From: a virus
IMG/VR virus record: IMGVR_UViG_3300037840_000303
Location: 1-33,293 of that record
Reading direction: 5' to 3' (one strand)
DNA length: 33,293 nt
The position numbers and the translations under genes are program-made. The first letter of the stretch is position 1. The number at the start of each line of letters is the position of its first letter. This document shows positions 1,935 through 3,072 of this stretch, piece by piece. The notes beneath the pieces are model-generated. The model worked only from the letters and a program-made list of their open reading frames with translations, searched no databases and was not told the DNA's origin.

Positions 1935-2059
1935 GACGAAGCCGAAGACCAGGTGGCAGGTTGGCCCAGCTGATCTGCCGTCCCGAAGCCGAAGCTGCAT
2001 CGCTCGAAGTCTAAGCCAAGCTCTCGTGTAAGCCAGATCCACTAGTAACGTCCGCGACT

Positions 2060-2136
2060 TACGGAATTGCGGGTTCGAGTCCCGCCGGGGAGGCCACATC
2101 TCCCTGTAGTCTAACGGCTAGGACACCGTGTCACAC
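2060..2136 (+). tRNA. candidate circularly permuted tRNA (3' half before 5' half), Val-like
   Basis: The 3' half comes first: anticodon 3' stem TACGG (2060-2064), variable AATT, canonical T arm (2069-2085), acceptor strand CGGGGAG (2086-2092), discriminator G2093 and an encoded CCA (2094-2096). After CAT comes a 5' half: acceptor strand CTCCCTG (2100-2106), T-A, a good D arm with the GG pair (2109-2124), A26 and anticodon 5' stem CCGTG (2126-2130). The two acceptor strands form 7 of 7 pairs and the two anticodon strands 5 of 5. The bases after the stem, TCACAC, resemble a Val(CAC) loop, but in strict register U33 would be C. Broken tandem tRNAs are the main alternative. Confidence 0.5.
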
Positions 2137-2224
2137 GAAAGAGGCGTGCTGACCGTCGCTGGCTGCGCGGGAATTGTCAGTAGGGACACCTACATCAGCC
2201 CGATAAGCTGTGACATCACTTATC

Positions 2225-2289: not shown

Positions 2290-3072
2290 ATGCCTGACCG
2301 TCCCCTCACCTTGTCTGCGGTCGTGGCGCACCTCCGGGTCGCCCGGGAAGCAAGCAACCGGGCCGGGGTCGCGCTGCGCAACGGCCTGAAGGACCAGCAT
2401 GTCACCGGGTTCAGCCGCACCTTCTCGCCCCGCGTCAGCGAGGGCGGCACCGAGGAGTACGCGATGCTGAACAAGAACGCTGACGAGTACAAGGCCGTCC
2501 CGATCGTCGTGGAGCACGCGCTGGCTGAGGACGCGGAGATCTCCGCGAAGTCTCTCGACTGGGCTTTCACCCAGGATCTGGCTAACTGCGCGGCACAGGC
2601 GGACGTCATCGTCAACGGGGAAACCCTGCTGCATCACGTGCCGATCTCCAGCATCCTGATGCTGGTAAAGTTCTTCGATGAGTACAAGGCGGTCATCCTC
2701 ACGCAGCTGCCCATCCTGGACCCGTCCAGGCACTGGGATTACGATGAGCAGTCCGGGATTCACCGGAGCCGCCCGGAGAAGTCGGCGGCCGTCCTCAAGC
2801 AGGAAGAGCCTGTCGTCTCCGAGGTGAGCAAGTCCCCGAACGGCGCGGAGACCACCAAGTACCAGCGGGCCAACCGTGAGGTGCGCATCGGTGACTGGAC
2901 GAACGTGATCCCCAGCGGAGCCGTCACCGAAGTCCGCAAGCGGCAGCTCCTCCGCAACGCGGACACCCTGCTGGCCGCACTGAAGGAAGCGGCGGCGGTG
3001 GCTAACCACACCCCCGCCCAGAAGATCTCCGGCCACGGGGAGAAGCTCTTCGGGTTCCTTCTCGGCCAGTAG
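2290..3072 (+). CDS. conserved phage protein of unknown function
   Basis: 260 residues starting at ATG 2290 behind AGAGG. It opens with a helical segment (VVAHLRVAREASNRAG...ALRNGLKDQH), has a middle part rich in charged residues, and ends in a helix (RKRQLLRNADTLLAALKEAAA) and a hydrophobic end (LFGFLLGQ). There is no signal peptide, clear membrane span or catalytic motif that I recognise. Similar soluble proteins of about this size occur in actinophage genomes without assigned role. It is the only gene between two hairpins, and a strong terminator follows it directly, so it looks like a separately transcribed and probably abundant product. Function unknown. Confidence 0.85.
   Translation: MPDRPLTLSAVVAHLRVAREASNRAGVALRNGLKDQHVTGFSRTFSPRVSEGGTEEYAMLNKNADEYKAVPIVVEHALAEDAEISAKSLDWAFTQDLANCAAQADVIVNGETLLHHVPISSILMLVKFFDEYKAVILTQLPILDPSRHWDYDEQSGIHRSRPEKSAAVLKQEEPVVSEVSKSPNGAETTKYQRANREVRIGDWTNVIPSGAVTEVRKRQLLRNADTLLAALKEAAAVANHTPAQKISGHGEKLFGFLLGQ

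Follow-up and report, generated by a model that had tools for sequence, protein, structure and literature searches.

The permuted tRNA-like unit and the DUF7873 gene

The stretch of DNA analyzed here, hereafter the window, is the IMG/VR virus record IMGVR_UViG_3300037840_000303 over its positions 1 to 33,293 (33,293 nucleotides). Between positions 2060 and 2130 it holds the parts of a transfer RNA (tRNA) in permuted order, i.e., T arm, 3′ acceptor strand, G-CCA, CAT, 5′ acceptor strand and D arm, with the strands of an anticodon stem at the two ends; the adjoining gene, on the same strand, encodes a DUF7873 protein. A preliminary description of this sequence proposed a circularly permuted tRNA gene. 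We found every part where that description had placed it, including all seven acceptor pairs, all five anticodon-stem pairs and CCA after the discriminator base. In our assessment, however, the element is probably the tRNA-like domain of a larger structured noncoding RNA that is genetically paired with DUF7873, and not the gene of a working tRNA. The features concerned are as follows.

2017-2170, + strand: RNA core, a single type-B permuted tRNA-like unit with its enclosing stem, matched by covariance model R1, which was built without the window
2060-2064, + strand: anticodon-like stem, 3′ strand TACGG; pairs 5/5 with 2126-2130, one G-U
2069-2085, + strand: T arm GCGGG-TTCGAGT-CCCGC; stem 5/5, loop TTCGAGT
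2086-2096, + strand: 3′ acceptor strand CGGGGAG (2086-2092), pairing 7/7 with 2100-2106, then discriminator G (2093) and CCA (2094-2096)
2097-2099, + strand: spacer CAT, which closes the acceptor hairpin; many relatives likewise read CCACAT here
2100-2106, + strand: 5′ acceptor strand CTCCCTG; 7/7 with the 3′ acceptor strand, one G-U
2107-2125, + strand: T8-A9 (TA, 2107-2108), D arm (2109-2124, 4/4) and position 26 (A, 2125)
2126-2130, + strand: anticodon-like stem, 5′ strand CCGTG; pairs with 2060-2064
2290-3072, + strand: DUF7873 protein gene (PF25283; Pfam E 1.2e-40), the next gene after the RNA

The permuted unit was called by neither ARAGORN nor the Rfam tRNA model. When viral contigs were scanned with exact tRNA-half patterns, no match was obtained, and a nucleotide search against phages returned a weak dCTP deaminase match and nothing else. 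A finder for tRNAs in permuted order gave one match in 1.85 megabases (Mb) of dinucleotide-shuffled sequence, and a chance origin of the unit is therefore unlikely.

Conservation and covariation beside DUF7873

Running a permutation-aware finder on related phages, a check that the preliminary description had proposed, revealed such units beside DUF7873. A protein search of viral contigs supplied the 68 viral DUF7873 loci analyzed. Of these, 55 carried a permuted unit beside the gene and 31 carried two; 83 finder matches lay on the same strand within 1.1 kilobases (kb) downstream of the gene, and three lay elsewhere. A permuted unit was likewise present at 65 of 80 DUF7873 loci from bacterial genomes. 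In both sets there are often two units, about 150 nucleotides apart. In the phage relatives, namely Gordonia phage Phendrix, Arthrobacter phage Racecar, NiceHouse and Ziko, the DUF7873 gene lies within or beside a tRNA array and is followed by permuted units, usually two in tandem (A, then B), whose 7/7 acceptors differ in sequence. A scan of viral contigs that was blind to the protein found further units, and where the tandem arrangement was clear, DUF7873 lay upstream. Cyanophage Pam2 carries the RNA-DUF7873 pair as well, and a Klebsiella jumbo phage gives a weaker case of it. When 79 genomes of one actinobacterial class were compared, the full-length RNA and DUF7873 were both present in the same five and both absent from the other 74. 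One of these five was the chosen center of the set; for the other four, the probability of coincidence is about 7e-7 assuming independence, although the genomes are not independent.

We then analyzed covariation in 35 nonredundant tandem pairs, comparing the pairing of each locus's own strands with that of strands swapped between loci. Own strands paired far better (p ≤ 0.0005) in the acceptor and anticodon stems, which the finder favors by demanding complementary strands there, and in the stem enclosing unit B, which lies outside that selection. A cross-control, with the 5′ strand of A set against the 3′ strand of B, showed no preference (p = 0.40). The compensatory changes between the two halves that the preliminary description had suggested looking for are thus found in relatives, in both the acceptor and the anticodon stems. 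In a 19-row alignment, both sides had changed in 32 of 36 pairs (0 of 500 shuffles). The anticodon-like stem of the relatives is continued, at the would-be junction, by two conserved and covarying helices, P3 and P4, which are paired in 89-92% of this alignment; the anticodon-like stem itself is paired in 49%, probably because its register differs between rows.

Model R1 matched the window at 2017-2170 over its full length (model positions 1-157) with 55.9 bits (E 3.5e-12). The tRNA-like part alone gave 45.6 bits, a score that is not diagnostic by itself, since permuted-looking matches in two actinobacterial genomes (G025 and G064) turned out to come from ordinary tRNAs duplicated in tandem; tandem tRNAs of this kind reach up to 60 bits with the model, matching positions 43-120 only. 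Given the match to R1 and the neighboring DUF7873 gene, we regard it as very likely that the window element belongs to this DUF7873-linked RNA class, which is apparently undescribed.

Some loci depart from the usual arrangement. In Herpetosiphon, an RNA with both units (L285:2692-2962, − strand) lies far from the DUF7873 gene, which shows that the two need not be adjacent, and on one viral contig the RNA (L183:4440-4732, − strand) is on the strand opposite DUF7873. Permuted units were also seen on four phage contigs where DUF7873 was not found in the locus (L087:10775-11003; L074:8365-8563; L069:4435-4531, − strand; L043:10646-10780, − strand). The L043 unit has an 8-bp closing stem, GATTAGTT/AACTAATC, and in L087 a motif like TTGCCC..CGTTTTGA is repeated between units. 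These four are possibly a second class.

Flanks and fold of the RNA in the window

Outside the tRNA-like part, the window holds the following features.

1921-1945, + strand: GAGCGCAAGACCAAGACGAAGCCGA, similar to the segment that lies upstream (U) in relatives, GAGCGCAAGCTGAAG (post hoc comparison)
1952-1982, extent approximate, + strand: plain hairpin where relatives have the first unit, A (predicted fold; post hoc comparison)
1998-2017, + strand: CATCGCTCGAAGTCTAAGCC, similar to the segment in the middle (M) in relatives, TTATCGCTCTAGTCTTAGC (post hoc comparison)
2031-2036, + strand: outer helix P4, 5′ strand AGCCAG (conserved covarying helix in relatives; pair probability)
2159-2164, + strand: outer helix P4, 3′ strand CTGGCT (covariation in relatives, model match, pair probability)
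2226-2256, + strand: terminator-like hairpin 3′ of the RNA, seen in the sequence; relatives end with a similar hairpin

The thermodynamic ensemble favors P4, the T arm and the acceptor in the window, with a P4 pair probability of about 1.0 for five of the six pairs and 0.51 for the outermost. The preliminary description had instead paired CTCTCGTGT (2021-2029) with ACACG-AA-AGAG (2133-2143) as a flanking helix. This pairing is possible on paper, but its probability falls to about zero once 2159-2170 is included, because AGCCAG at 2031-2036 pairs with CTGGCT at 2159-2164.

The permuted-tRNA finder gave no match for a unit A in the window, which thus has one unit only. A tandem pair is present in many relatives, though not in all, and did not serve to define the class. 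In relatives (e.g., L136, L141 and L208), the U and M segments show a six-base period with alternating basic and hydrophobic codons (KLKLKL, RLRLSL); pairing between U and M by base complementarity was unsupported (p = 0.16). The flank motifs had suggested that a permuted group I intron might surround the tRNA; this idea was rejected, the flanks being too short for the core and giving no Rfam match. Further upstream, at 1293-1366, lies an odd tRNA with a large D-region insertion and no clear anticodon arm, which scored 30.7 bits with the Rfam tRNA model and was missed by ARAGORN.

Competing explanations and a proposed role

If this were a genuine circularly permuted tRNA gene, its transcript would be cut, joined at the anticodon loop and trimmed, as in algae and some archaea. 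Such genes are alike in placing the 3′ half before the 5′ half, in their short spacer and in sometimes encoding CCA; those known have spacers of 1-74 nucleotides and junctions at 37/38 (PMC3978253). The permuted order and 7/7 acceptor of the window agree with this, as does the encoded CCA, which is shared by 16 of 35 A and 15 of 35 B units (31 of 70), a frequency far above chance at the exact place, though the feature is not general. However, no U33 or stable anticodon loop is kept across the 35 relatives: T stands at the U33 place in 8 of 35 A units and 7 of 35 B units vs. 81 of 83 ordinary tRNAs of the same loci, and the window has C there, in line with the missing U33 that the preliminary description itself named as its weak point. 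In addition, the place of the junction is occupied by conserved outer helices, the flanking helix is not favored and no joined product is known. To our knowledge, the tRNA-splicing endonuclease that joins permuted tRNAs is not known from bacteria. What survives of the original proposal is therefore the permuted architecture, conserved with strong covariation, while it is very unlikely that the locus encodes a tRNA that is joined and matured. The preliminary description had also raised two broken tandem tRNAs, which, like a chance arrangement, we consider extremely improbable. Other tRNAs, together with the odd one, do lie within 1.5 kb upstream, and tandem duplicated tRNAs give partial model matches, but there are no complementary halves nearby, and the covariation in relatives, the model match to both flanks and the single match in 1.85 Mb of shuffled sequence argue against either origin. 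Its conservation, together with the strong covariation, rules out both chance and the decay of tandem tRNAs.

Two known bacterial RNAs offer closer comparisons. At permissive thresholds, the Rfam YrlA model (RF02553) matched 2041-2156 with 29.6 bits (E 7.7e-5; gathering score 69), covering the fold of the window RNA weakly; because ordinary tandem tRNAs score 37-38 bits with this model, its score is not diagnostic and is a lead only. In YrlA, a tRNA-like domain is combined with a basal stem to which Rsr binds (PMC8394870), and the window RNA has the same permuted module of T arm, acceptor hairpin and D arm, with an anticodon-like stem that runs into a basal stem (protein-binding in YrlA). It could on this basis be a YrlA-type Y RNA whose partner, Ro60/Rsr, is encoded elsewhere in the phage. 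Yet no Ro60/Rsr (TROVE) gene was found in the window, which is a fragment, or in five phage records, and YrlA membership was rejected on this and on the score below the gathering threshold. The RNA is partnered genetically with DUF7873 and not with TROVE, a co-occurrence that largely refutes a YrlA-type RNA and makes it highly improbable; unlike YrlA, moreover, the DUF7873-linked RNA usually has two tandem modules, other basal helices and an acceptor that is often 7/7 with encoded CCA. An Rfam scan of five loci found no family except ordinary tRNA reaching its cut-off. At one Actinomadura locus (L287:1989-2247), a pair of neighboring YrlA-like matches, scoring 54.2 and 30.7 bits, lies away from the DUF7873 gene.

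The other comparison is with transfer-messenger RNA (tmRNA), whose permuted genes have the order T arm, acceptor, CCA, spacer, 5′ acceptor strand, as does the RNA described here. Permuted tmRNA is processed into two RNAs (PMC10085705). A multi-piece RNA could be processed in the same way, with ribonuclease P (RNase P) and 3′ trimming removing the spacers while the pieces stay paired, and its CCA ends might be charged with an amino acid for a function linked to translation. In favor of this are the precisely placed CCA, far commoner than chance would give, and the M segments, which can be read as short frames of basic and hydrophobic residues and in which third-position changes were somewhat in excess in a peptide-coding test of the flanks. 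However, these frames lack conserved starts or stops, U shows no such excess, and U of the window reads K-T/P; there is no clear tag frame. The G3-U70 alanine identity is found in 1 of 35 A and 1 of 35 B units, with C-G at 3:70 in the window, and in many acceptors the hairpin ends in a short TCG or TTCG loop. In contrast to two-piece tmRNA, the DUF7873-linked RNA has a full D arm and an anticodon-like stem, and the tmRNA model matched only the T arm in the window. We therefore judge this reading unlikely.

Several observations also weigh against the reading that we prefer, a tRNA-like domain within a DUF7873-paired noncoding RNA. The window differs from its relatives in having a single unit (most like B), in a weak P3, which has zero probability in the folding ensemble, and in the placement of the RNA before the DUF7873 gene, which it follows at other loci. 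The flanks contribute only about 10 bits to the model score in the window, and the ensemble probability is 0.14 for the D arm and about 0.03 for the anticodon-like stem. The encoded CCA in relatives hints at tRNA-type end processing, for which simple mimicry has no need. Finally, the modeled fold of DUF7873 suggests no function. The AlphaFold model is confident (predicted local distance difference test score 92), but Foldseek searches with it against the PDB and viral libraries gave no match below E 0.001, and a sequence search against solved structures gave nothing significant; on a second look by structure comparison, the top entry was 3kdq_A, itself of function not known (Z 10.3, root-mean-square deviation 6.4 over 149 residues). 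DUF7873 is named in no paper of the open-access library covered by the search.

In the DUF7873-paired RNA as we envisage it, the would-be anticodon stem leads outward into P3 and P4 and has no loop. DUF7873 would bind this RNA, with the conserved stem and the internal loops as the probable site, and there is a reasonably good chance that the two form a ribonucleoprotein (RNP). As a tRNA mimic, the RNA may use its elbow and acceptor to recruit or decoy a tRNA-handling enzyme, such as a nuclease, a modifying enzyme or a processing factor, on the model of YrlA, which links Rsr/Ro60 to polynucleotide phosphorylase (PNPase). By this analogy we infer that the RNA works most like a bacterial Y RNA, even though it fails the tests for YrlA, and a recruiting or decoy role of that kind is plausible but tentative. 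RNase P may open the acceptor hairpin, yielding a nicked RNA with CCA ends for which joining of the outer ends would not be needed; the CCA counts are compatible with cleavage and maturation of these hairpins after the manner of two-piece tmRNA, with no joining step. It seems distinctly unlikely that DUF7873 and the RNA form a two-headed, tRNA-shaped RNP, opened by RNase P, bearing CCA ends and aminoacylated or delivered to the ribosome; if true, phages and bacteria would share a tmRNA-like or translation-linked machine of a new class.

The RNA-protein pair is found in actinobacterial and cyanobacterial phages and probably in those of enterobacteria; it is also present in Streptomyces (many), Actinomadura, Chloroflexota, Armatimonadota and Acidobacteriota. 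Few bacterial RNAs that mimic tRNA are known to us, namely tmRNA and YrlA, and the DUF7873-linked RNA often bears two such mimics. On the reading preferred here, DUF7873 would gain a testable role, and the odd "permuted tRNA" would be accounted for without new splicing machinery.
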